Assembly (NCBI GenBank): GCA_016870515.1
Contig: VGBL01000006.1
Coordinates: forward strand, 64,038-128,037
Direction: 5' to 3'
DNA length: 64,000 nt
From: Actinomycetota bacterium
GTDB lineage: Bacteria > Actinomycetota > Actinomycetes > S36-B12
Shown here piece by piece: positions 7,127 through 63,110 of the stretch. A program made the position numbers and the translations under genes. The notes under the pieces are model-generated. The model had not been told where the DNA came from and did no database searches. It saw nothing but the letters and a program-made list of their open reading frames with translations. Every line of letters starts with the position of its first letter. Positions within the stretch are counted from its first letter, which is position 1.

Positions 7127-8566
7127 TTAGTCTCCGAGCTCGGCACGGCGTTTGATGACGTACTCCTCGAGTTCGGCACGGACCGCGTCATCGAGGGGCG
7201 GCTGCTCGTAGTCCTCGAGCTTCTTCTCGTAGATCTCCCGGGCACGCTCGACCACGTCGCGCGCACCTAGGCGCGTCCAGCGCTCGAAGTTGTCGGAGTT
7301 CCACAGGAACGGGCGGTAGAAGCATGTGCGGAAGCGTTCCATCGTGTGCTCGGCGCCCAGGAAGTGGCCGCCGGCACCAACCTCCTCATGGGCGCCGAAG
7401 GCGAGGGCCTCGTCGTCGAAGTCGACCGGGGTGAACTCGCGCTCGAGCGACTCCAGCATCTGCACGTCGATGACGTACTTTTCGTAGCCGGCCACGAGGC
7501 CGCCCTCAAGCCAGCCAGCCGTGTGCATGACGAAGTTGGTGCCGGCCAGGAAGGTCGGCAGCATCGTCATGAGCGACTCGAAGGCCGCCTGGCCGTCGGC
7601 CGTCTGCGATGAATTGAGGCCACCGCCAGTGCGGAACGGCAGGTTGAAGTGCCGCGCGATCTGGCCGGTGCACAGCAGTCCGACCGCCGACTCGGGCGTG
7701 CCGAACTGCGGCGACCCGGACTGCATGTCGATGTTGGACAGGAATGAACCGAAGACCACCGGTGCACCCGGACGGATGAGCTGGCTCAGGGCGATGCCGG
7801 TGAGGGTCTCAGCGATCTGCTGGGCGAGGGTCGACGGGATCGATACCGGCGACATCGCACCCATGAGCAGGAACGGCGTCAGAATGACCGGCTGCATTGC
7901 CTTGGCGTATTCGAACTGGGCCTCGAGCATGCGGTCGTCCCACCGCAGCGGGGAATTGCAGTTGATGAGCGAGATGCACACGGGCGTCTTCTCGATGGCT
8001 TCGCGGCTACCGAAGAGGATCTCGCTCATGCGGATCGTGTCGAGCGCACGGGTGCCGCTGACGACATTGCCCATGTAGAACTTGTCAGTCAGCGTCATTG
8101 CGGCATAGAGCATGTCGAGATGTCGCGAGTCGAGGGGGGCATCACTGGGCTCGCACACCACACCGCCGACGCTGTCCATGGCGCTGAACGATTGGGCCAG
8201 CTTGGCGAAGTTGCGGTAGTCCTCCATGGTGGCGTCTCGACGTGTGTCCCCCTGGCGCACGAACGGCGGTCCGTAGACGCTCGAGAAGACCATGTGGTCG
8301 CCGCCGATGTGCACGGTGTTGGCAGGGTTGCGCGCCTGAATGTCGAACTCTCGCGGGGCCTTGGCCACCTGCTCGAGCACGAAGTCGGGGTCGAAGAACA
8401 CCTTGTCACCGTCGGTGCGCATGCCGGCAGCCTTGAAAAGCTCGACGGCCTCGGGCTTGATGAACTCAATGCCCAGCTCGGAGACGATCCGACGCCAGCC
8501 GCGGTCCAGGACGGCCATGGAGTCCTCGGAGAGGATCTGGTAGCGCGGGAGCTTGTTGACCAACAT
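7127..8566 (-). CDS. MttB-family methyltransferase without pyrrolysine, probable glycine betaine:corrinoid methyltransferase (MtgB type)
   Basis: Protein of 479 residues from ATG 8566-8564, which has a good SD (GGAGGG) eight bases upstream. Sequence such as AGMRTDGDKVFFDPDFVLEQ and GGGLNSSQTADGQAAFESLM is typical of the trimethylamine methyltransferase MttB superfamily (COG5598). The frame has no internal TAG, so it is a non-pyrrolysine member. That subgroup includes the glycine betaine demethylase MtgB and relatives acting on proline betaine or carnitine. Reaction expected: glycine betaine + Co(I)-corrinoid protein to dimethylglycine + methyl-corrinoid. Choline-to-betaine and betaine-uptake genes lie downstream on the same strand, and the corrinoid protein is divergent. 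Substrate is inferred from context. Confidence 0.85.
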   Translation of the reverse strand: MLVNKLPRYQILSEDSMAVLDRGWRRIVSELGIEFIKPEAVELFKAAGMRTDGDKVFFDPDFVLEQVAKAPREFDIQARNPANTVHIGGDHMVFSSVYGPPFVRQGDTRRDATMEDYRNFAKLAQSFSAMDSVGGVVCEPSDAPLDSRHLDMLYAAMTLTDKFYMGNVVSGTRALDTIRMSEILFGSREAIEKTPVCISLINCNSPLRWDDRMLEAQFEYAKAMQPVILTPFLLMGAMSPVSIPSTLAQQIAETLTGIALSQLIRPGAPVVFGSFLSNIDMQSGSPQFGTPESAVGLLCTGQIARHFNLPFRTGGGLNSSQTADGQAAFESLMTMLPTFLAGTNFVMHTAGWLEGGLVAGYEKYVIDVQMLESLEREFTPVDFDDEALAFGAHEEVGAGGHFLGAEHTMERFRTCFYRPFLWNSDNFERWTRLGARDVVERAREIYEKKLEDYEQPPLDDAVRAELEEYVIKRRAELGD

Positions 8567-8629
8567 GGTGAGTCCCTCCGTCTTGACCGACCTGGCATCT
8601 GATCCTACACTCAGGTTTTGGCACGTATG

Positions 8630-8644
8630 TTCCATATGGTGAAA
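8630..8644. promoter_or_regulatory. Candidate operator TTCCA-N5-TGAAA in the methyltransferase/iclR divergent promoter
   Basis: The 15-base imperfect palindrome reads TTCCATATGGTGAAA and is centred on CCATATGG. It lies in the 92-base gap between the divergent methyltransferase and iclR genes. A second copy of the same arms and spacing (TTCCACACTGTGAAA) lies in the formate dehydrogenase/fdhD divergent promoter at 28956-28970. IclR-family dimers bind sites of this size, so the adjacent IclR protein is the obvious candidate. Confidence 0.5.
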
Positions 8645-8658
8645 CTTCTGGAGGCGGG

Positions 8659-9438
8659 ATGGCGACCACGGTGCCCGTGGGCACGCAGGCGGTCGATCGT
8701 GCCGCCCTGCTCCTTGTCTTCGTGCTCGAGTCGACCGGGCCCATCGCCTCCGCCGAGCTCGTGTCGGCCACCGGGCTCCCCAAGAGCACCGTCTCAAGAC
8801 TGCTCTCGAGCCTGGAGCGCAGCGGACTTGTCCAGCGCACGACCGAAGGTGCCGTCATCGCCGGACCGCGCATCACCCACTTCGCGCTGTCCGTGCGCCC
8901 CGAGGACACACTCGTGCGGCTAGCCCAGCCATCGCTCGATCGCCTGGGCGAGTTGACCGGAGAGACCGTCAACCTGGCCATCCCTCTCGGCGGCGAGGTG
9001 CGCCAGATCGCACAGGTCGATGCCGTCTACCTCCTAGGCGCGGTCAATTGGCTCGACCGCCCGGTGCCCTTCCACTGCAGCGCACTGGGTCGCGTCTTCC
9101 TCGCCCACGGGCATCCCATTCCCACCGGCCGCCTCCCTCGACTCACCGACCGCACCATCACGTCGCGCGCGCAGTTGCAGCGCGCCCTGGATCGTGTCGT
9201 CCACGTCGGCTACGCCGTGGTCGACTCCGAGCTAGAACCCGGCCTGGTTGCCATCGCGGCGCCCATTCGATCCGCGGACGGTTCCGTGAATGCCGCCGTC
9301 TCGGTCTCCGGACCCTCCGTGCGGCTCACCCCCGACGCCCTGCCCACGGTCGGGGCCCTCGTCGTCGAGGCAGCCGACACCATCAGCCGCGCCCTGCGCC
9401 ACGGCCAGTCGAGCACCTCACGCAAGGGAGCAGCATGA
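8659..9438 (+). CDS. IclR-family transcriptional regulator
   Basis: Regulator of 259 residues. An N-terminal winged helix-turn-helix covers about residues 10-75, with the recognition region TGLPKSTVSRLLSSLERSG. An IclR effector-binding domain follows to about residue 245. The start ATG follows GGAGGCGGG. It is divergent from the methyltransferase gene and its stop overlaps the next gene start as ATGA, so it heads the corrinoid-pathway operon. It probably controls that operon in response to glycine betaine or a pathway intermediate; the ligand is not evident from sequence. The candidate binding site is at 8630-8644. Confidence 0.9.
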   Translation: MATTVPVGTQAVDRAALLLVFVLESTGPIASAELVSATGLPKSTVSRLLSSLERSGLVQRTTEGAVIAGPRITHFALSVRPEDTLVRLAQPSLDRLGELTGETVNLAIPLGGEVRQIAQVDAVYLLGAVNWLDRPVPFHCSALGRVFLAHGHPIPTGRLPRLTDRTITSRAQLQRALDRVVHVGYAVVDSELEPGLVAIAAPIRSADGSVNAAVSVSGPSVRLTPDALPTVGALVVEAADTISRALRHGQSSTSRKGAA

Positions 9439-51282: not shown

Positions 51283-53733
51283 TCAGCCGCGCACGCGCGC
51301 GCGTTCGGGGTCGTAGAAGGGCGCGAACTGCACCGTCGCCGGATACGCAGTCCCGTTGACGACGACCTCGAACCCACCGCTAGCCAGCCAATCGGCGGTC
51401 ACGCCGTCAGCGTTGTCGACAGTGGCCAGCCCGACTGAGGTACCTAGCGTATGACCGAAGCCGCCCACCTGCAGGTGGCCCACGCGCCTCCCGTCCTTGT
51501 GGACGGGCTCGCTGCCATGAAGCAGCGGAGTCGAGTCGTCGACTCGCAGCGGCACCAGTCGGCTCGTGCGATCGGCGCGCAGCTTCTCGAGCGCTTCCTT
51601 GCCGCGGAATTCCGTGGGCTTGTCCCAGGCGACCGCGAACGACAGCCCCGCAGAGACGGGAGTGTCGGTGACGTCGATGTCGACGCCGTAGTCGCGATAG
51701 GCCTTCTCCAGACGCAGACCGTGCATCGCCGCAAGCCCGACAGGCCGGAAGCCGAGATCGGATCCGGCGGCCTCGAGGGTCTCCCAGACCGACTGCGCCT
51801 GATCGCTGGGGATCAGGAGCTCGAAGCCGAGCTCGCCGACATACGTCACCCGCAGGGCGCGAATGCGGGAGTAGCCGATCTCGATCTCCTGCGTCGTGAG
51901 GTAGGGGAATGCCTCCTCGGACAGGTCGTCAGGACTCACGCGCTGCAGGAGCTCACGCGATCGTGGACCCTGGATCGTCAGCAGGCAGTACGCCGAGGTC
52001 ATGTCGGTGACGGTCGCGAACTCGCCTTCGCGGTGCTCATCGCGCAGCATGCGCTCGACGCGTCGATGGCTGATGTCGGAGACGATGACCATGAACTGGT
52101 CGTCAGCCAGGCGCGTCACCGTGAGATCGGCCTCGATGCCACCTCTCTCGTTGCACCACTGGGTGTAGACCACTCCACCGACCGGACCGGCCACCGCATT
52201 GGCACTGAGTCGGTCGAGGATGGCTGCTGCCCCGGGGCCTTGCACGAGGAACTTCGACATCAGCGTCATGTCAATGGCACCGACGGCCTCGCGGATGACG
52301 CGGTGCTCGTCGGCCACCCAGGGGCTCCAGAAGCCACGCCCCCAGGTCCAGGGGATCTCGCGCACGGGCTCACCGGGAGGGTAGAACCACTCGACGAACT
52401 CCCAGCCCGCCGAGTCGGCGAAGTGGGCGCCCTTGTCCGCCCACACATGATGCAGCGGCGTGCGTCGGATATCGCGAGCCGTGTGCTGGTGGAACGTCGG
52501 ATATCCGCCGTCACCGAAAAGCACGCCGAGTTGCTCCACGATCCGCTCGGAACGAAATCTCTGGGTGTTCTGATGGGGAACCGCGCGCTCGATCGTGTAG
52601 CCGGCGTTGTCGAAGGGACACACGCCATCGACCAGCCACGACGCCACCATGTTGCCGACTCCGCCGCCGAGTATGATGCCGACCGAGTTCAACCCCGCAG
52701 CCACCCACAGCCCGTCCACTTCGGGGACTGGGCCGACCATCGGGGCGATATCAGCCGTGAAGCTCTCGGGGCCGCAAAAGAAAGTGCGCACTCCAGCCTC
52801 CGACAGCGACGGGATGCGGGCCATCGCCCTCTCCAGGTGCGGGGTCATGCGGTCCCAGTCGGGGGGGATCGTGCCGAAGGCGAAGTCGTCGGGAGCGCCC
52901 TCCGGGTGCCAGCCTGCCGCCACCGGCTCGAATAATCCGACGAGCATTCCTCCGCCTTCTTCGCGGAAGTAGCCGTAGCAGTCAAGGTCCTCGATGATCG
53001 GCAGGTCGCGATGCACGCCCGCCATTGGCTCGGTGAGCAAGTAGTAGTGCTCGGCAGCCTGCAGCGGAATGTCGACACCGGCCTTGCGTGCCAGTTGCCT
53101 GGTCCACAGCCCTGCGGAGAGGATGACCGTGTCGGCCTCGATATCTCCCCGGTCCGTCGTCACGCCGGTGACACGTCGGCCATCCATCAGGAAGCCGGTG
53201 ACGCGCACACCCTCCTCGATCGTCGCTCCGCCCATCTTCGCGCCCTTGGCCATGGCCGTGGCGACACCGACCGGATCCGCGCGCCCCTCATCGGCCACGT
53301 AGGCTCCGCCAACGAGGTCGTCCACATTGGCAAGCGGCCAAAGCTCGGCGATCTCTTTCGGATCGACGATCTGATTGGGCACGCCGAATCCGACCTGGAA
53401 GTCGCGCTCACGCACTAGCGTCTCCATGCGCTCGGGCGTGGTGGCCACCGACAGATGCCCGACGGCGCGGAAACCTGTCGAGTGCCCGGTCTCCTCCTCC
53501 AGCCGGGCATACAGATCGCGGGAGTAGCGGCACATCCACAATGAGGTCTCATCGTGGAATCCAGCGCTCGTGATGAGCCCTGCCGCATGCCAGGTCGTGC
53601 CGGCCGTGAGGTTGTGCTTCTCGAGGAGCAGGACATCGTGGACGCCGAGCTTGGTGAGGTGGTAGGCGATCGAGCAGCCGATCACGCCGCCACCGACGAT
53701 CACAACCTGGGCCCGTGCGGGCAGCGTGCTCAC
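51283..53733 (-). CDS. Dimethylglycine/sarcosine dehydrogenase (FAD + GcvT domains)
   Basis: An 816-residue flavoprotein from GTG 53733. N-terminal FAD motif GGGVIGCSIAYHL and the canonical FAD-attachment motif GTTWHAAGL are present, then FAO_M and GcvT domains from about residue 430, with VTYVGELGFELLIPSDQ and LRLEKAYRDYGVDID. It should demethylate dimethylglycine or sarcosine, forming methylene-THF when THF is bound. It is the better match to classical DMGDH/SARDH of the two paralogues in the window. It lies at the end of a spermidine/putrescine-type importer operon, so the imported substrate may be its own. Confidence 0.92.
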   Translation of the reverse strand: MSTLPARAQVVIVGGGVIGCSIAYHLTKLGVHDVLLLEKHNLTAGTTWHAAGLITSAGFHDETSLWMCRYSRDLYARLEEETGHSTGFRAVGHLSVATTPERMETLVRERDFQVGFGVPNQIVDPKEIAELWPLANVDDLVGGAYVADEGRADPVGVATAMAKGAKMGGATIEEGVRVTGFLMDGRRVTGVTTDRGDIEADTVILSAGLWTRQLARKAGVDIPLQAAEHYYLLTEPMAGVHRDLPIIEDLDCYGYFREEGGGMLVGLFEPVAAGWHPEGAPDDFAFGTIPPDWDRMTPHLERAMARIPSLSEAGVRTFFCGPESFTADIAPMVGPVPEVDGLWVAAGLNSVGIILGGGVGNMVASWLVDGVCPFDNAGYTIERAVPHQNTQRFRSERIVEQLGVLFGDGGYPTFHQHTARDIRRTPLHHVWADKGAHFADSAGWEFVEWFYPPGEPVREIPWTWGRGFWSPWVADEHRVIREAVGAIDMTLMSKFLVQGPGAAAILDRLSANAVAGPVGGVVYTQWCNERGGIEADLTVTRLADDQFMVIVSDISHRRVERMLRDEHREGEFATVTDMTSAYCLLTIQGPRSRELLQRVSPDDLSEEAFPYLTTQEIEIGYSRIRALRVTYVGELGFELLIPSDQAQSVWETLEAAGSDLGFRPVGLAAMHGLRLEKAYRDYGVDIDVTDTPVSAGLSFAVAWDKPTEFRGKEALEKLRADRTSRLVPLRVDDSTPLLHGSEPVHKDGRRVGHLQVGGFGHTLGTSVGLATVDNADGVTADWLASGGFEVVVNGTAYPATVQFAPFYDPERARVRG

Positions 53734-53745
53734 GATCCCTCCTCG

Positions 53746-54669
53746 TTACAGGTTGCCGGCAAAGGAGCCGAGGTCGGTGGCCTGGCCCTGGCGCTTCAAC
53801 CAACGACGGTAGAGCAACCATCCCAGGACGATGACCAAGGTTGACACTACCAGAATAATGGTTGCCATCGCATTGAGCGCAGGAGTGGGTGCGGCACGGG
53901 CCGTCTGGTAGATGCGCATAGACGTCGTCTCGGTCGAGGCGTCTGACGAGAGGTAGCGCACGATTACGAAGTCGTCGAGCACGTCGGCAAAGACGAGGGT
54001 CGCGCTGACGAGGATTGCCGGGAAGAGCATGGGCAGGATAACGCGGCGCACGGCGCCGATCGCCGATGCTCCAAGATCTCGCGCCGCCTCCTCGTAGTGG
54101 GAGCCGATGGTGAGCAGGCGAGCCCGGCATATGACGATCGGATAGGCGAGTTGGAAGGTCACCAGGCCGATCACCTGCGCCCAGGCGCCGAGGCCGAACG
54201 GTGTCGCGAGATAGGTGACCATGAAGAGCAGGCCGATCGCCAGAGCGATCTCCGGGATGACGAATGTGATCAGCGCAAGGAAGTTGGCGCCCGCGGGAAT
54301 GCGCCCGCGCCAGCGGTCGAGCGCCAGGGCAAAGAGCACGCCGAGCGGCACGGTGATGCTCGTCGCAATGATCGCGAGGGTGACCGTGTGCATGAGCGCC
54401 GTGCGTATCGACTCGTCGTTGAGCACCGATCCCGTAGGATCCCAGGTGTACCAGCGCAGCGAAAACCCTTGCCAGGTGCTGCGAGAACGGCCCTCGTTGA
54501 AGGAGAAGAGCACGGTGATGGCCACCGGCACGAGCGCCCAGAGCAGGTAGACGACCGTGATCGTGCCGAGCCCATAAGCGCGAGCGTCCGAACTGCCGCG
54601 CAGCCGCCGGGGGCGGCTACCCCTGCTCTCCTCGAGGATGGCCTCGGCAGGCGCAGCGGACACGGTCAC
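53746..54669 (-). CDS. ABC transporter permease (PotC type)
   Basis: A 307-residue membrane protein with six helices and a proline-rich N-terminus. The EAA loop EEAARDLGASAIGAVRRVIL is near residue 195. GTG start 54669 overlaps the upstream permease stop (GTGA). Family: spermidine/putrescine-type importer. Cargo here may be a methylated amine, given the demethylase downstream. Confidence 0.9.
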   Translation of the reverse strand: MTVSAAPAEAILEESRGSRPRRLRGSSDARAYGLGTITVVYLLWALVPVAITVLFSFNEGRSRSTWQGFSLRWYTWDPTGSVLNDESIRTALMHTVTLAIIATSITVPLGVLFALALDRWRGRIPAGANFLALITFVIPEIALAIGLLFMVTYLATPFGLGAWAQVIGLVTFQLAYPIVICRARLLTIGSHYEEAARDLGASAIGAVRRVILPMLFPAILVSATLVFADVLDDFVIVRYLSSDASTETTSMRIYQTARAAPTPALNAMATIILVVSTLVIVLGWLLYRRWLKRQGQATDLGSFAGNL

Positions 54670-55562
54670 GACCGCACCTCCGCCTTCGCATTGCTGCGCG
54701 TGTAAAGCACCATCGGCGCCAGCAGCACGAGAAGCACGAGGATGAGCAGTGCCCCGGCCTGCCCGGCCTGCCCGGGCGTGACGATCGACAGGTTGACCAG
54801 GTTGCCGATCATCGCCGTATTGGGTGATTTAGACAGCATGTCAGAGGTGAAGTAGTCGCCCATCATCGGCAGCGCGATGAGGAGGCTACCCGCGACGATG
54901 CCGGGGACGCTCATCGGCAGGATCACTCGGCGGAAAAGGTCCATCCCGGTTGCTCCCAGATCACGCGCCGCCTCGATCAGGCTGGGGCTGATGCGGTCAA
55001 GGGCGGCAAAGAGGGGCAGGAGCATGTAGGGGATGTATCCGTAGATGAGCCCCATGACGACGGTGAAGGGGTTGCCGCTGAGCCAGTTGATATCGATGGG
55101 TATCAGGCCCCCCATCGTGATGACCGTGTTGACCAGGCCCTCCGGCTGCAGGAGGTTGATCCACGAGAGCATGCGCATCATGTAGGAGATCCAGAAGGGC
55201 GCGATCAGCAGTGCAAGTACCAGTCCGCGATATTTGCCGGCGTAGCGTGCGGTGAAGTAGGCGACCGGGAAGGCAATGAGCAGGCATGAAGTGACGGCGA
55301 TCGCGACGTAGACCAGGGTGCGAATCACCGCTGGCAGGTAGAAGTTGTCAGGGCCGACCAGGCGGTCCCAGACGACCCCCATTTGGCTGAACTGCCACTC
55401 GAGGGGATTCCACACGGGGATCGGCGAGCGGAAGATCGGGTCGACCACCCCGAAGGCCACGCAGAGCACGACGTAGAAGGGCACGAAGAAGAACAGGACG
55501 ATCCACACGATTGCCGGCAGTCCGAGGATCGGCCAGAGGGGCCGAGTGGAGCGATCCTTCAC
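54666..55562 (-). CDS. ABC transporter permease (PotB type)
   Basis: A 298-residue membrane protein with six helices (first: PILGLPAIVWIVLFFFVPF). The EAA loop is IEAARDLGATGMDLFRRVIL near residue 200. GTG start 55562, one base after the binding-protein stop. Pairs with the PotC-type permease to form the channel. Confidence 0.9.
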   Translation of the reverse strand: MKDRSTRPLWPILGLPAIVWIVLFFFVPFYVVLCVAFGVVDPIFRSPIPVWNPLEWQFSQMGVVWDRLVGPDNFYLPAVIRTLVYVAIAVTSCLLIAFPVAYFTARYAGKYRGLVLALLIAPFWISYMMRMLSWINLLQPEGLVNTVITMGGLIPIDINWLSGNPFTVVMGLIYGYIPYMLLPLFAALDRISPSLIEAARDLGATGMDLFRRVILPMSVPGIVAGSLLIALPMMGDYFTSDMLSKSPNTAMIGNLVNLSIVTPGQAGQAGALLILVLLVLLAPMVLYTRSNAKAEVRS

Positions 55563-55563
55563 A

Positions 55564-56853
55564 TCACGCCCCGGCCTTGAACTGCTGCCAGATCGCCTGG
55601 TATTCAGTCTCCACCTCTGGCGATAGCTCCAGGAGCGGGTAGCCCACCTGGAACCACTCGGGCTTCACGACGGCACTCGCGAGATTGGCTGGCACAAGCC
55701 CGTCGGCCACCATCATGTCGGGCGTGAGCGATCGCAGCGGCGGCTGGTAGCCGATCCACGAGGAGTTCTTGCGCGACACGGCGTCATTCAGCATGTAGTT
55801 GATGAAGTGGTGGGCCATAACAGGGTTCTCGCCGCCCTTGAGGGCCAGCATGAAGTCGTTGCCGATGACGCCTCGGCCATCTGGCGGACTCCAATAGCGC
55901 AGGACCGATGGGTCCACACCGTCCGGCATGTAGAACTGACCGGTGAGCATGTCGCCGGACCAGCACTGCGAGAGCGACAGGACCCCCTCGGGGATGTCTG
56001 TGTATCCCGTGATGGTTACTCGCGGCCGGCTGATGGACAACATCTCCAGCATCGCATCGCGAGTGGCCCTCAACACAGCCGGGTCGCTCGTGTTCACGTC
56101 GGTGCCGCCGTCGCGCAAGATGGTCATGCCGATGACCTCGCGGTCATCGTCAAGCACGGCGATCTCACCGGCGTACTTGCTGTCCCAGAAGACGTCGTAG
56201 GGGTCGGGACGAGCACCGATGTCCTCAGGGATGATGTCCGCCCTCCAGCCGATACCGGTCGTGTAGATGACGTAGGGGGCGGTGTATTGCCAGCCCTGGT
56301 CGTACCACGGGTTCTGGAACTCCTCCCAGACATCGGAGATATTGGGGATGTAGTCGTGATTGAGCGGACGAATCAAGTTGCCGTAAACCAGGCGTGCCAT
56401 GTAGTTGTAGGACATGAACGTCACGTCGTAGGGGACGCTACCGCTGCGGATCTTCGTCAGGGCCTCGGGATAGTCATTGAAGCTGGAGTACTCGACCTTG
56501 ACGTTGTAGTCGGCGTACTCTTTCTGGAAGTCCTTGATGACGCCCTTGTCGAGATAATCCGGGTAGTTGTAGACACGCAGGGTGGCATTGCTCTCCGGCT
56601 CAAGACCACTGGCGATGGGCTCGTTGCCGGGGTTGATCGGCCACTTGACGGGGTTGGTGGGCGACGCGATCTGGAGTTCGGCGGGAGCTGACGTGGCTCC
56701 CCCGGCAGTGCCGCCACTTGCTGACGCCGCACCCGTGGGCCCGCCGAGAGGCTGCGCACGCGCGCATGCGGCCAGCGCCCATGAGCCCGGGACGGCCAGC
56801 GCCGAGGTCTGCAGGAGGCGGCGTCGGGAGAGCGGACGGCGGGGCTGAACCAT
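55564..56853 (-). CDS. ABC transporter substrate-binding lipoprotein (PotD type), Tat-like signal
   Basis: A 429-residue binding protein. The N-terminus SRRRLLQTSALAV is Tat-like, followed by lipobox ALAAC. A Gly/Ser/Ala linker precedes the periplasmic-binding fold with LRVYNYPDYLDKGVIKDF and YDVTFMSYNYMARLV. SD AGGAAG lies before ATG 56853. Family ligands are polyamines, but related proteins bind betaine-like or other amines; the ligand is not clear. Confidence 0.88.
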   Translation of the reverse strand: MVQPRRPLSRRRLLQTSALAVPGSWALAACARAQPLGGPTGAASASGGTAGGATSAPAELQIASPTNPVKWPINPGNEPIASGLEPESNATLRVYNYPDYLDKGVIKDFQKEYADYNVKVEYSSFNDYPEALTKIRSGSVPYDVTFMSYNYMARLVYGNLIRPLNHDYIPNISDVWEEFQNPWYDQGWQYTAPYVIYTTGIGWRADIIPEDIGARPDPYDVFWDSKYAGEIAVLDDDREVIGMTILRDGGTDVNTSDPAVLRATRDAMLEMLSISRPRVTITGYTDIPEGVLSLSQCWSGDMLTGQFYMPDGVDPSVLRYWSPPDGRGVIGNDFMLALKGGENPVMAHHFINYMLNDAVSRKNSSWIGYQPPLRSLTPDMMVADGLVPANLASAVVKPEWFQVGYPLLELSPEVETEYQAIWQQFKAGA

Positions 56854-56986: not shown

Positions 56987-58066
56987 GTGCGCGGCGGGCG
57001 AGTGCAGGTCACCGATCTGCAGAAGCACTACGGCGATGTCCCCGCCGTGCGCGGGATCTCCATTGATATCGCCGCTGGCGAGTTCTTCAGCCTTCTCGGC
57101 CCATCCGGATGCGGCAAGACGACGACCCTGCGCATGATCGCGGGCTTCGAGACGCCCACGTCCGGCGACATCCTCATCGATGGGTCCGACATGTCGCGGG
57201 TCCCCGCCAACGAACGTCCCGTCAACACCGTCTTCCAGAACTACGCGCTCTTCCCCTTCCTCTCGGTGGAGGACAACGTCGCCTTTGGCCTTCGCTATCA
57301 GAAGGTCGGCAAGTCCGACGCGAAGCGCAAGGTGGGCGAGGCCCTCGAGATGGTGCGCATGGGCCAATACGCCAAGCGCAAGCCGGGGCAACTCTCGGGC
57401 GGTCAGCAGCAGCGCGTTGCCCTGGCGCGCACGATCGTCCTAGGGCCGCGCGTACTCCTGCTCGACGAGCCCCTCGGTGCCCTCGACGCGAAACTGCGCA
57501 AGGCACTGCAGATTGAGCTCAAGTCCCTGCAGCAGTCGCTCGGCATCACGTTCATCTACGTCACGCACGACCAGGAAGAGGCACTGACGATGTCCGATCG
57601 CCTCGCGGTCATGGCAGGTGGCCTGGTCGAGCAGGTGGGCACTCCAGCCGAGGTCTACGACTCCCCCGCGACGGCCTATGTCGCCGACTTCCTCGGCAAC
57701 GCCAACGTTCTCGACGTCGAGGTGGCCGGGCCGGCCGGCACCGGGCGTACGACGGTGCGACTCGCAGGACAGACCCTCACCTGCCAGGGTGACGCGGGGC
57801 CTGGTGACGCGGTCAAGCTCGTCGTCCGACCTGAGCGCCTGCGGCTCGAAGGGGCGGCCGCAGAGTCCAGCGCGATCGACGGCAGCGTGTCGCGTGTCGT
57901 CTACCAGGGGCCGACCACCGACATTCATGTGCGCCTGGGCGATGGCGAGGAACTCGTGGTGCGGCTGCCCAGCGCGCGCGCGGGTCAGCACTCCACGGGT
58001 GAAGTCGTCACGGTGCACTGCCAGCCCGACGCCCTGCGGCTTCTACCCCGCGGCGCCCTGTCCTAG
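56987..58066 (+). CDS. ABC transporter ATP-binding protein (PotA type)
   Basis: A 359-residue ATPase with Walker A GPSGCGKTTT, Q-loop VFQNYALFPFL, signature LSGGQQQRVALAR, Walker B VLLLDEPLGALD and switch His VTHDQEEA, then a TOBE domain (about residues 270-355). It is divergent from the binding-protein/permease operon. The best start signal is not at GTG 56987: GAGAGGA with ATG 56957 lies 30 bases upstream in the same frame, but TAG at 56984-56986 interrupts. Translation probably restarts at GTG 56987, directly after the amber codon. Confidence 0.88.
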   Translation: MRGGRVQVTDLQKHYGDVPAVRGISIDIAAGEFFSLLGPSGCGKTTTLRMIAGFETPTSGDILIDGSDMSRVPANERPVNTVFQNYALFPFLSVEDNVAFGLRYQKVGKSDAKRKVGEALEMVRMGQYAKRKPGQLSGGQQQRVALARTIVLGPRVLLLDEPLGALDAKLRKALQIELKSLQQSLGITFIYVTHDQEEALTMSDRLAVMAGGLVEQVGTPAEVYDSPATAYVADFLGNANVLDVEVAGPAGTGRTTVRLAGQTLTCQGDAGPGDAVKLVVRPERLRLEGAAAESSAIDGSVSRVVYQGPTTDIHVRLGDGEELVVRLPSARAGQHSTGEVVTVHCQPDALRLLPRGALS

Positions 58067-58123: not shown

Positions 58124-59193
58124 TCACGCATTGGCCCTCTCCGGCTGCGGTCGTACGCCGAGCGGCTGGCCGAGGTGGCCCCGCGCCACCATTGTCACGA
58201 ACTGGTAGTCGGGCGGGAATGCCCAGGCGCACTCCACCCACGTCTCGCGCGGCGAGACAGGGATGGCGCGATGCGTCATGACGTAGTCCGGGTGCAGGCT
58301 GATCAACAGATTGGGGAACGCTCCGATGTAGTCGACGCGGCGTAACTCCTCATCGTTGGGGCCGGGGATGAACGCGCCGTTGATGTGGCCGTCAAGCGAC
58401 ATCGTGACCGCCTGCTCCGGCAGCTCAAGGTGGCCGCCGACTCAGGCACCCTCCGTCGCTCCCCAATTGGCACCGCTCTCCGGCAGACTCACGACACAGC
58501 GCTCGGGGTGGATTGACGGGCAGTGGTCACACTCCTGATACTTCTCGGTGATGGTCTTGTAGTTGGCCTGGATGACGAATTGGTAACTGCCGCGCACCTG
58601 GAGAGTCTCAAGGCGATAGGGAGCGACGCGCTCCTCGAGTCCGGCCAGGTGCGCATCGAGTGGCCCAGCCTGGCCGGAGATATCGACGGACGAGAAGCCG
58701 TGCCACTCCGCCACCTTCAGCGAGCGAAGCGGAAACTTTGACTTGTCGAACGACGAAAGGCCACCGTAGCCCGCAGCGCTGCAGAGCTCTCCGTCGAGGC
58801 GATAGGACCACGAGTGGTAGGGGCAGGTGATCGCGCGCGCCTGCGCGGAGCCGCCGCAGGGCCGGATGTCGTGGCCTCGGTGGCGGCAGACCTCGGCGAA
58901 AGCGCGGAGGACACCGTCTTCGCCTCGCACCAGCAGAGCAGTAGTGTCCCCTGCACGCTCGGCGCGCTGCATGCCCGGCTCGGCGATGTCAGCGCTGCGC
59001 CCCACGCAGATCCAGCCGCTGAAGAAGTTGCGCCTCCCCACTCGAAGACCTCGTGCGACGAGTCCGCCTCGACCGGGAGCATGCGGCCCTCGCCGAAGGG
59101 GGCGAGAGTGCGGGCGAGTGCGTCGGCGGGCAGCGGAGGGGGTGAACGTGAAGGCCGACGATCAGCGTAGACGCGGGAATGGGCCCCCACCAC
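58124..59193 (-). pseudogene. Rieske-type oxygenase alpha subunit (choline/glycine betaine monooxygenase-like), frameshifted and with an in-frame stop
   Basis: Three segments rebuild one protein of about 355 residues. The start (59193) to about 59044 reads to DSSHEVFEW. A single-base deletion moves the frame, and RRNFFSGWICVGR continues to a TGA at 58444-58442. The same frame then resumes with VGGHLELPEQAVTMSLDG to 58124. At the TGA position relatives carry Trp (GAWVGG), so TGG to TGA is likely. The Rieske motif (CRHRGH then CPYHSW) and the iron site (ECDHCPSIHPE) are intact. Homologues include choline monooxygenase, GbcA and stachydrine demethylase. It is probably inactive unless the two changes are assembly errors. 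Confidence 0.82.
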
Positions 59194-59205: not shown

Positions 59206-61206
59206 CTAGGCGATGATCGCGTCGACTGCAATCGATTGCGTGGCGCCGACAATGCAGGGGTTGACCTCGATGAGACGGCACTGCTGGGTGAGAAGGGCGT
59301 CACCCACCCCCGAGGCGAGGGCGCACAGCCCATCGACGTCATACGCCGTCCCGCCGCGGTCGCCTCTGAGCAAGCGCACGGCGCGCAGTGACTCCACAGC
59401 CACCCGCACGCGATCGATGTCAGCGGGGAGCGGGATCACAGCAACATCGGAAAGGGCTTCGGTCCACACGCCACCCAACCCGATGGTCAGTGTCGGCACT
59501 ACGCCGTCGCGGCGCGCGCAGACGAGGACTTCGAGCCCCGGCTCGACCATCTCCTCGACGAGGATTCCACAGCCCGCATGCACCGCCAACAGGCGACCAG
59601 CCTCTCGCTGGACATCCTCCGCGGTTCGAACGCCCACGACGACGCCGCCCACGTCGGACTTGTGCAGCAGTCCCGGCACGACGGCCTTGAGCACGACCGG
59701 GAAACCCACCTCAAGGGCGGCGTCGACGGCCTCGTTCGCCGACACGGCGACCTGACCTCGCGGCACGGGGATACCGTGCCGCGCGAGCATGGCCTTGGCC
59801 TCAGGTTCTGAGATCGGCGCGTTCTCGCGCCCGACCACTGAAGCAGCGGTCGCCATGTCAAGCAAACGGTGCTGCGACGATCGCGCACCCTGGAGCGCAG
59901 CCAGTGATCGCAAGGCGTTGTCGAGTCCCTCGACCGCATCTGCGGCACCCTGCCCCGGGAGCGTAGCCACGACCAGCGTGTCGTGGCCCGCGCGTTCGCC
60001 GCCTACGACGCCCCCCAGGCGAGTCGCGCGCCACTCGGCCAGAGACCCAGCAGGCAGACCAGGCGGCTCGTCCTGCACGTAGACCAGGTGACCGACACCC
60101 GGATCACGCCCGACCGTCTCCGCGAGCGCGGCGATGGCCTCGGTGTCGGCCCACACCAGTGCGGTGTGATCCAGCGGATTCGCAACGGTCGCGGCCGGCG
60201 GCAGCAGTTCTCGCAGCCTCTGCTCGGTGGCATCCGACAGGTCGGCGAGCCCCACACCTAGATCGGCGGCGAGGTCGGCCGCGATGGCCGCATCTCCGCC
60301 GGAGCACGTGAGCACGCCGGCCCCCCGCGGATCACGACGGCCCACGGCCAGCGCACGCGCCGTTTCCAGGAGTTCGAGTGGTTGTCGCACCATGACCGCG
60401 CCGGCTTCCTCCATCATCGCCGCGAACACCGTCTGGTCGCCGACGATGGCCGCGGTGTGCGCCTGGCCGACAGCTGCGCCGCGCGAACTGCGTCCGACCT
60501 TGAGGACCACCAAGCGCACATCGCGTTCACTGCACGCCGCGAGCGCCCTGCACCAGCTGGTCCCGTCGCCGTCGGCCTCGAGATACAAGGCGATGGCACG
60601 CACTCCCTGGAGTTGGGCCAGGTGTTCGACCGCCATCGCCGAGTCGACAACCGCGGCATTGCCGATCGATATCACCGTATGCAGCCCCAGGCCGCCGCGA
60701 TGCCCCATGCCGATGACACCGACGTTGCCGCTCTCCGACACGAGCGCGATACCCCCCGCCGCCGCTGGCAGGGCGACGGCGTCGCCCCACAGCGGTGCGC
60801 GCGCCGCCACACTCACGAGTCCGTTGCCGTTGGGTCCGATGACGGCGAGATCGCCGGCGGCTGCATTCAGCTCATCTTGGAGGTCGCCGCGACCGCTCTC
60901 GGCGAAGCCCGCGGCGTAGACGACCGCTCCTCCGCAGCCGCGCTCGCGGGCCTGTGCGACATAGGCGGGAACGGTCTCGGCCGGCGTGGCGATGACCACC
61001 GCGTCGACCGGGCCGACATCGAGGAGGCTCGGCACGCAGGGGAAGCCTGCCGCGGAGGTGCGCGTCGGATGCACGCCCACGACGTCGCCCGCGAATCCCG
61101 CACGCGCGAGGTTCAGCAGGGTGGCGTTGGCATAACTGCCCTCACGGTCGGTCGCGCCGACAACCGCCACCGATCGGGGCGCCAGAAGTCGAGTGAGGTC
61201 AGGCAT
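59206..61206 (-). CDS. Acyl-CoA synthetase, ADP-forming (fused alpha and beta domains)
   Basis: A 666-residue protein from ATG 61206-61204. Domains: CoA-binding (about residues 1-130, PRSVAVVGATDREGSYANA), two succinyl-CoA ligase-like domains (about 140-430, with GQAHTAAIVGD around the phospho-His), and an ATP-grasp domain (about 450-666, ARHGIPVPRGQVAVS, GFPVVLKAV, IEVNPCIV). It makes acyl-CoA with ATP to ADP + Pi, or runs in reverse to conserve ATP. It is four bases after an acyl-CoA dehydrogenase gene. Acid substrate unknown. Confidence 0.9.
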   Translation of the reverse strand: MPDLTRLLAPRSVAVVGATDREGSYANATLLNLARAGFAGDVVGVHPTRTSAAGFPCVPSLLDVGPVDAVVIATPAETVPAYVAQARERGCGGAVVYAAGFAESGRGDLQDELNAAAGDLAVIGPNGNGLVSVAARAPLWGDAVALPAAAGGIALVSESGNVGVIGMGHRGGLGLHTVISIGNAAVVDSAMAVEHLAQLQGVRAIALYLEADGDGTSWCRALAACSERDVRLVVLKVGRSSRGAAVGQAHTAAIVGDQTVFAAMMEEAGAVMVRQPLELLETARALAVGRRDPRGAGVLTCSGGDAAIAADLAADLGVGLADLSDATEQRLRELLPPAATVANPLDHTALVWADTEAIAALAETVGRDPGVGHLVYVQDEPPGLPAGSLAEWRATRLGGVVGGERAGHDTLVVATLPGQGAADAVEGLDNALRSLAALQGARSSQHRLLDMATAASVVGRENAPISEPEAKAMLARHGIPVPRGQVAVSANEAVDAALEVGFPVVLKAVVPGLLHKSDVGGVVVGVRTAEDVQREAGRLLAVHAGCGILVEEMVEPGLEVLVCARRDGVVPTLTIGLGGVWTEALSDVAVIPLPADIDRVRVAVESLRAVRLLRGDRGGTAYDVDGLCALASGVGDALLTQQCRLIEVNPCIVGATQSIAVDAIIA

Positions 61207-61210
61207 GCGA

Positions 61211-62428
61211 TTAGGTGAGCATCGCGCGTACGCCGCGCCGCTCCAGCGAGCGCGCAACGATCAGCCGCTGGATCTCGGACGTGCCCTCCCAGATGCGGTC
61301 GACGCGCAACTCGCGCCAAAACCGCTCGGCCGCCGTCGTGCGCATGTAGCCCCGGCCACCGAAGATCTGGACAGCACGATCCGCGCAGCGGTTGGCCGCC
61401 TCCGAGCAGAAGAGCTTGGCCATCGACGCCTTGCCGTGCACCAACTTGGGGTCAGCACCCTCATCGGCGAGCGCGGCCACGTCAAGGCCGAGCAGACGAC
61501 CCGCCGCGGCATCGGCAGCGCTGTCGGCAAGCGGAAAGCTCACGCCTTGATGATCGATCAGGCGCGCGCCACCCTGCTCGCGATGCATGGCCCAGTCGAT
61601 GCTCTCCTCGATGAGGCGCTGCATGGCACCCACGCAGCGAGCGGCGATACCGAGCCGCTCCTCAGTGAACCAGCGGCGCTGAAGCTCGTCGCCCTCGCCC
61701 ACCCCGCCGATGATGTCGTCGTCGGTCACGATGACGTTGGTGAAGCGGAGTGTCGGGTGCCCGTGCGGGTAGCTGTGCGTGAACGGCACGTCGGCGACGG
61801 TCTCGATGCCGGGAGCGTCGGCTGGCACTGCAAAGAGAGTGGGAAGCGCTCGTCGGTCTGGATCCCCGTATGCCATCACGACGATGACAGCCGCGATGGA
61901 ACCATAGGTGACGAACCACTTCTCACCGTTGATAACCCATCGGCCATCGCCGAGCGGACGCGCCGTGGTGGTCATGCCCGACGGATCACTGCCCGCCTCG
62001 GCCTCGGTCACGGCGTAGGCGTCATGAAGCTCCCCGCGAAGGGCCGGCAGCAGCCAGCGCTCCTGCTGGGCGGGCGACGCGTGCTTCCAGACGTTGTACG
62101 CCGTCGGGATGTACCAGGACACCCCGTTGGTGGATCGGCCGAACTGCTCCTCGACCAAGAACCACTCCGTGACGCTCCAGCCATTGCCACCTTGCTCGCG
62201 CGAGTGGGAACCACCCTGAACTCCGTACTCCATGGCCTTGGCACGTATGCGCTCCTGGTCGGCGACGGGCAGCGGACCGCCGGCCAACTCCGCCGTCACC
62301 TCGAGCGGGATCAGCACGTCATCGACGAAGGCGGCCGCCCGAGCCTGTAGGTCGGCGTGGTCTGCGATAGCGACTGAGCGGCCCCTGTCGGGCTGGCGCG
62401 GGTCCGTGCGCACGGCATCTCCAGCCAC
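61211..62428 (-). CDS. Acyl-CoA dehydrogenase
   Basis: A 405-residue flavoenzyme. Family segments: AYAVTEAEAGSDPSGM (FAD/substrate), INGEKWFVTYGS, QIFGGRGYMRTTAAERFWRE and VDRIWEGTSEIQRLIVARSL, where the Glu of WEGTSE is the usual catalytic base position. GTG 62428 is taken as start; TATCCT just upstream would allow a near-leaderless transcript. The substrate is likely the product of the adjacent synthetase. Electrons would go to ETF. Confidence 0.92.
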   Translation of the reverse strand: MAGDAVRTDPRQPDRGRSVAIADHADLQARAAAFVDDVLIPLEVTAELAGGPLPVADQERIRAKAMEYGVQGGSHSREQGGNGWSVTEWFLVEEQFGRSTNGVSWYIPTAYNVWKHASPAQQERWLLPALRGELHDAYAVTEAEAGSDPSGMTTTARPLGDGRWVINGEKWFVTYGSIAAVIVVMAYGDPDRRALPTLFAVPADAPGIETVADVPFTHSYPHGHPTLRFTNVIVTDDDIIGGVGEGDELQRRWFTEERLGIAARCVGAMQRLIEESIDWAMHREQGGARLIDHQGVSFPLADSAADAAAGRLLGLDVAALADEGADPKLVHGKASMAKLFCSEAANRCADRAVQIFGGRGYMRTTAAERFWRELRVDRIWEGTSEIQRLIVARSLERRGVRAMLT

Positions 62429-62495
62429 TGGAAGGATATGGACGCGGGCTAGCGTATCTCAGTGATCGTTCAGCCCACCTGCGCTGGGAGGCTTG

Positions 62496-63110
62496 ATGGC
62501 GAAGGGGGCCCTGTCGGCCAAGGCGCCGGAGGAACGCCGTGAACTCATCCTGCGCGCCACCGTGGCCGTGGTGAGAGAGCGGGGATTCGCCGGCACGCGT
62601 GTCGCCGACATCGCCGAGGCGGCCGGCACATCGCAGGGTCTGGTCCTCTACCACTTCGGCTCCCTCGCCGGCGCCCTCGACCAGGCGCTGACCCTGCTCG
62701 AGGATGAGTTCTACGTCGACCTTGAGCACGACCTGCAGGAGCAGAAGGGCCCCATCGAGCGCCTGCGCCACATGGCCGAACTCGGCACCGGCCTCGGCCC
62801 TGCCGTCGGCGACTGGCGACTGTGGCTGGAGATTTGGTCGCGCGCCCTGCATGACGACGATGCGCGCGAGACCCGCGAGTCCCTCGACCGACGCTGGCGC
62901 GCAGCTCTGCGCGACGTCATCGCAGAGGGAGTGTCGACGGGCGACCTGAGATCCACCGACGTCGACGGGGCCGTGGTCCGGCTGGCCTCCCTCATGGACG
63001 GGCTCGCCATTCAGTTGGCCCTTGAGGATCCCGTCATGACCCCCGACCGCTTCACCGACCTGTGGTGGGAGGCGGCCCGCCTCGAGTTGGGCATGATGAC
63101 CACCTCATAG
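62496..63110 (+). CDS. TetR-family transcriptional regulator
   Basis: A 204-residue regulator; ATG 62496 follows GGGAGG. The helix-turn-helix is TRVADIAEAAGTSQGLVLYHF (first 20 shown by position, residues about 35-55). A ligand-binding all-helical domain follows, BetI/PsrA-like in layout. Divergent from the acyl-CoA dehydrogenase gene; 86 bases before an aminotransferase gene whose promoter carries two palindromes that are probable operators. Confidence 0.9.
   Translation: MAKGALSAKAPEERRELILRATVAVVRERGFAGTRVADIAEAAGTSQGLVLYHFGSLAGALDQALTLLEDEFYVDLEHDLQEQKGPIERLRHMAELGTGLGPAVGDWRLWLEIWSRALHDDDARETRESLDRRWRAALRDVIAEGVSTGDLRSTDVDGAVVRLASLMDGLAIQLALEDPVMTPDRFTDLWWEAARLELGMMTTS

Follow-up and report, generated by a model that had tools for sequence, protein, structure and literature searches.

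The broken Rieske oxygenase gene in the 64,000-nucleotide stretch of DNA analysed here (the window) is very probably a pseudogene that still occupies its ancestral position in a conserved cluster for uptake and demethylation and is redundant with an intact oxygenase on another contig, C11, of the same genome; its decay does not require that any pathway was lost or replaced. The cluster is hosted by a Nanopelagicales-type freshwater actinobacterium, whose draft genome (G000; 2.4 Mb, 61 contigs, 96.7% complete) was compared with 10 congeners and 74 other members of the family, making a sample of 85 genomes. It is unlikely that the pathway was given up in this organism; most likely a spare gene copy is decaying. 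The case may thus be one of complementary gene loss after redundancy in a small aquatic genome, and it advises caution against inferring the loss of a pathway from a single broken copy. A literature search returned no paper that treats glycine betaine, Rieske, pseudogene and dimethylglycine dehydrogenase together.

The decayed gene and its cluster

The original prediction described a broken Rieske oxygenase of the choline/betaine monooxygenase type; the reading frame on the minus strand, the lesions and the alignment with orthologues all bear out a broken gene for an enzyme of the quaternary-amine kind (Table 1). The gene matches PF00355 with 55.4 bits and PF00848 with 87.4 bits, both above the cut-offs, although the latter match covers only positions 1-141 of the 208 in the profile. 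Two of its lesions had been foreseen: a TGA at 58444-58442 replaces the Trp codon of the intact orthologues (GAWVGG motif), and one base, expected to be missing near 59044, is lost at about 59041, splitting ...EVFEW from RRNFFSGW. TGA is an ordinary stop here, since it terminates six of 15 intact window genes checked. In addition, alignment with intact orthologues shows that the conserved ATG has been replaced or lost in a start region that carries small indels at about 59160-59140, and that an in-frame deletion of 51 codons at 58209/58208 joins FPP directly to YQFVTMVARG. The stretch FWDITNREDW falls inside the deleted codons.

Table 1. Features of the window that bear on the Rieske pseudogene, its cluster and the corrinoid route
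Feature	Position	Strand	Remarks
MTTB-superfamily methyltransferase, corrinoid route	7127..8797	minus	also in 10/10 congeners
Dimethylglycine-dehydrogenase-like (DMGDH) FAD/GcvT enzyme, intact	51283..53733	minus	C-terminal end persists fused on C11
PotC-like permease, intact	53746..54669	minus	
PotB-like permease, intact	54666..55562	minus	N-terminal 125 aa persist as fused remnant on C11
PotD-like substrate-binding protein (SBP), intact	55564..56853	minus	nearest C11 SBP in tree
PotA-like ABC ATPase, intact	56987..58066	plus	
Rieske oxygenase pseudogene, type A of the genus	58124..59193	minus	PF00355 and PF00848 matches, four lesions
Junction of 153-bp in-frame deletion, iron-ligand Asp gone	58208..58209	minus	orthologue alignment, PMC7948474
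Premature TGA at conserved Trp codon	58442..58444	minus	alignment with intact orthologues
ADP-forming acyl-CoA ligase-like gene, intact	59206..61257	minus	conserved neighbour
Acyl-CoA dehydrogenase (ACAD), intact	61211..62428	minus	conserved neighbour
TetR/BetI-like regulator, intact	62493..63110	plus	conserved neighbour

The mononuclear iron of the carnitine monooxygenase CntA is held by His208, His213 and Asp323 (PMC7948474). The Asp of the NRED motif in the intact paralogue aligns on CntA Asp323 (chain position 343 minus a 20-residue offset, by our own count) and on chain position 360 of Stc2. The His-His-Asp site is complete in the C11 copy and in the orthologues, whereas the window copy keeps both His and has the Asp deleted. 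The claim that the Rieske and iron-site residues are intact thus stands for the [2Fe-2S] ligands (CRH...CPYH, which the pseudogene shares with every orthologue shown), for the bridging Glu and for the two His, and is wrong for the iron site as a whole because the 153-bp deletion removed the equivalent of Asp323. The surroundings of the site are eroded as well, ENYQECYHC having become EKYQECDHC. Within this motif lies a Cys-x-x-Cys pair, a feature found near the iron site of some Group V Rieske oxygenases (PMC10952381), which reads ECDHC in the pseudogene and ECYHC in the orthologues. Judged by its sequence, the gene is an ordinary pseudogene, dead in the window and intact in relatives, and its enzyme is Group V-like (the Rieske oxygenases of quaternary-ammonium substrates) by the Cys-x-x-Cys pair.

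The surrounding genes follow a conserved order: TetR, ACAD, ADP-forming CoA ligase, Rieske, PotA, SBP, PotB, PotC and DMGDH-like. This cluster is visible partly or wholly in most relatives, depending on how far their contigs extend; in one genome (G009, contig L124) the transporter/DMGDH part is absent from beside the Rieske gene within the stretch read. Some relatives carry inserts of 1.0-1.7 kb between Rieske and potA, whose main open frames do not look reductase-like by eye. Of the 85 genomes, 22 (G000 among them) carry a close Rieske gene, with an identity of 62% or more, and only the window copy has internal stops; at the loci compared, the genes of the relatives and the C11 copy are intact. 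This Rieske gene is also present on three contigs titled Bifidobacterium breve (L048, L056 and L110), in two of which it is 63-71% identical to the window copy; these titles look like mislabelled environmental bins.

Intact copies and the history of the decay

The original prediction had itself named an intact second copy as evidence against its reading, and such a copy was found on C11 (L116:9862-11037 and upstream). This gene has an open frame of 416 codons, all Rieske and iron ligands and a normal branch length (0.049), and it belongs to a second type (type B) and is 93% identical to the gene of congener G023. Downstream of it lie an SBP gene whose product is 81-82% identical to that of the window and then a frame of 176 codons, in which PotB residues 1-125 are fused to the C-terminal DMGDH residues 762-811 (tblastn E 3e-15 over 754-815 for the DMGDH tail); no PotA or PotC remnants were detected beside the C11 Rieske gene. 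The best match of the Rieske protein, the SBP, the PotB fragment and the DMGDH tail is G023 in every case (93, 84, 82 and 71%), and because all parts of the block are closest to this congener, its origin would most likely lie in a G023-like cluster. Mis-binning of C11 was considered and rejected: the pabB-like gene of this contig is the single close copy in G000 and is most similar to those of G022 and G029, the genomes that are also nearest to G000 by rpoB (97%, G022), MTTB (97-98%) and ACAD (93%, G022). The same contig carries a trimethylamine-dehydrogenase/OYE-like gene (L116:13114-15140) that is apparently split by a frameshift, one frame matching PF00724 positions 2-123 and a different frame positions 139-340. 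A third, more distant Rieske gene, Group V-like, intact and 39% identical, lies on contig C30 (C30:23272-24057; L185:8075-9337), near genes for a DMGDH-like protein and a peptide-type ABC transporter.

In a protein tree the pseudogene groups with the Rieske proteins of G025, G030 and G026 (type A; support 100/100), on an end branch of 0.35 compared with 0.048-0.10 for these three. It alters 17 of 158 columns scored as invariant (identical in all intact copies); the same columns have 0-4 changes in intact copies, with 10 and 11 in the two most divergent ones. Compared with the type A relatives, it shows at each codon position an excess difference of about 0.04-0.09 per site over the level among the relatives (our own arithmetic from column counts), as a neutral phase would give. 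In a two-ratio codon model, omega on the pseudogene branch is about 0.026, similar to the background, on a branch that is very long and probably saturated, and the branch-specific models run for neutrality, saturated in this way, gave no raised omega on it. Setting omega to 1 along the entire branch worsens the fit by about 23 log units and is rejected; therefore constraint acted over most of the branch, and we read the decay as recent, atop what would be a long constrained history.

The losses at the two loci are complementary, with the transporter and the dehydrogenase kept in the window and the oxygenase kept on C11. In the scenario that we favour, C11 came to carry an additional, incomplete copy of the cluster that most resembles the one in G023, the two oxygenases would thereby have become redundant, and the window copy would then have decayed. 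The C11 oxygenase presumably acts in trans with the PotABCD-type importer and the DMGDH-like enzyme of the window, and we infer that it may serve both; its electron donor is presumably a reductase that does not belong to the FAD_binding_6 family. A wider reading, to which we give about an even chance, is that two copies of one quaternary-amine cluster were exchanged and that their complementary decay leaves a single working pathway split over two loci, the oxygenase on C11 and the importer and dehydrogenase in the window; within the genus the Rieske gene would then be a swappable cassette, its types A and B occupying equivalent positions in close relatives. In G023 and G025, for example, the products of TetR, ACAD, PotB, PotC and DMGDH are 94-96% identical, yet at the same position of the cluster the former has a type B and the latter a type A Rieske gene, and these are 80% identical to each other. 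Nearly identical neighbours around different Rieske types suggest that alleles of the oxygenase may have been exchanged within the cluster.

The corrinoid route and other readings

From 569 to 28431, the window carries choline/betaine-type uptake and oxidation genes followed by a complete-looking corrinoid demethylation set. The set comprises MTTB, a B12-binding corrinoid protein, a pterin-binding transferase, an MTHFR-like protein, RACo, a DMGDH-like protein, ETF, FTHFS and formate dehydrogenase, and is adjoined by GMC and aldehyde dehydrogenases. Aerobic corrinoid demethylation of glycine betaine has been published for marine bacteria (PMC12478193). The original prediction saw here the replacement of one route by another: the corrinoid (MTTB-type) route at 7-28 kb would have taken over from the oxygen-dependent one, leaving an unneeded Rieske gene to decay. 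The complete appearance of the set favours this idea, but the comparison of relatives with and without the corrinoid cluster, proposed as a check, speaks against it, since all ten congeners have an intact Rieske gene together with MTTB. MTTB is likewise present in 15 of the 22 family genomes with a close Rieske gene (G000 counted), and G000 itself retains intact Rieske genes on C11 and C30. Outside the genus but within the family, Rieske without MTTB and MTTB without Rieske both occur. Because the two coexist across the genus, replacement is unsupported and we regard it as very unlikely; the broken gene is no sign that oxygen-dependent demethylation was abandoned for the corrinoid route. In two genomes of another genus (G037 and G038, contigs L155 and L156), a single TGA lies inside each MTTB match.

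One may also argue that errors of sequencing or assembly in a metagenome-assembled genome only mimic a broken gene, for G000 is a draft in 61 contigs and the frameshift and the TGA are one-base events each. Nevertheless, base-calling cannot explain the deletion, the lost start codon and the 17 changes at invariant sites, and no internal stop occurs in the 15 window genes checked, which include all eight intact genes flanking the pseudogene in the cluster. This makes an artefact highly improbable, and the window gene is a genuine pseudogene rather than sequencing noise. Another possibility is that the 199-codon frame from 59041 to 58442, which holds the Rieske domain and the first part of the catalytic domain, continues to be produced in a new role, for example in electron transfer. 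The intact Rieske cluster ligands and the constraint on the branch overall would agree with such a role; the missing conserved start and the alteration of otherwise invariant sites would not, and a similar truncated form was found in no relative at the loci compared. We therefore consider a new role improbable in the extreme.

Enzyme identity and the reductase partner

The best NCBIfam match of the window enzyme is GbcA (NF058607), with which it shares the Rieske plus non-heme iron architecture. However, the pseudogene scores 120.3 bits and the intact C11 paralogue 190 bits against this model, far under its equivalog cut-off of 670 bits, which leaves the predicted GbcA-type identity, with dimethylglycine as the product, unproven. 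The best PDB sequence match of the intact paralogue is the stachydrine demethylase Stc2 (PDB 3vca), on which the ECYHC motif and the TN-ED Asp are aligned, although the similarity is remote (E 5e-43) and the window copy has lost the region of this Asp. As for CntA (PDB 6y8j), its His208, His213, Asp323, bridging Glu205 and Cys206/Cys209 are matched in the intact orthologues (PMC7948474, PMC10952381), whereas the window copy has no equivalent of Asp323. Both GbcA and CntA differ further from the present system in that the genus has no detected FAD_binding_6 reductase of the GbcB or CntB kind.

It had been proposed to look for a reductase (gbcB) elsewhere, and none was found in any of the 11 genomes of the genus: FAD_binding_6 (PF00970) reductases of the GbcB/CntB type were undetected in 11 of 11, while the control matched in 8 of 14, and a search by PF00175 gave a single marginal match. 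Because these reductases are undetected throughout the genus, the absence of gbcB from G000 is no sign of decay. The genus retains its Rieske oxygenases although the FAD_binding_6 domain was detected in none of the 11 genomes. What emerges is a conserved cluster with a putative betaine-type substrate and an oxygenase without its usual reductase partner. The oxygenase gene has a CoA ligase gene and an acyl-CoA dehydrogenase gene as neighbours, and in this setting the enzyme could act on some betaine different from glycine betaine.
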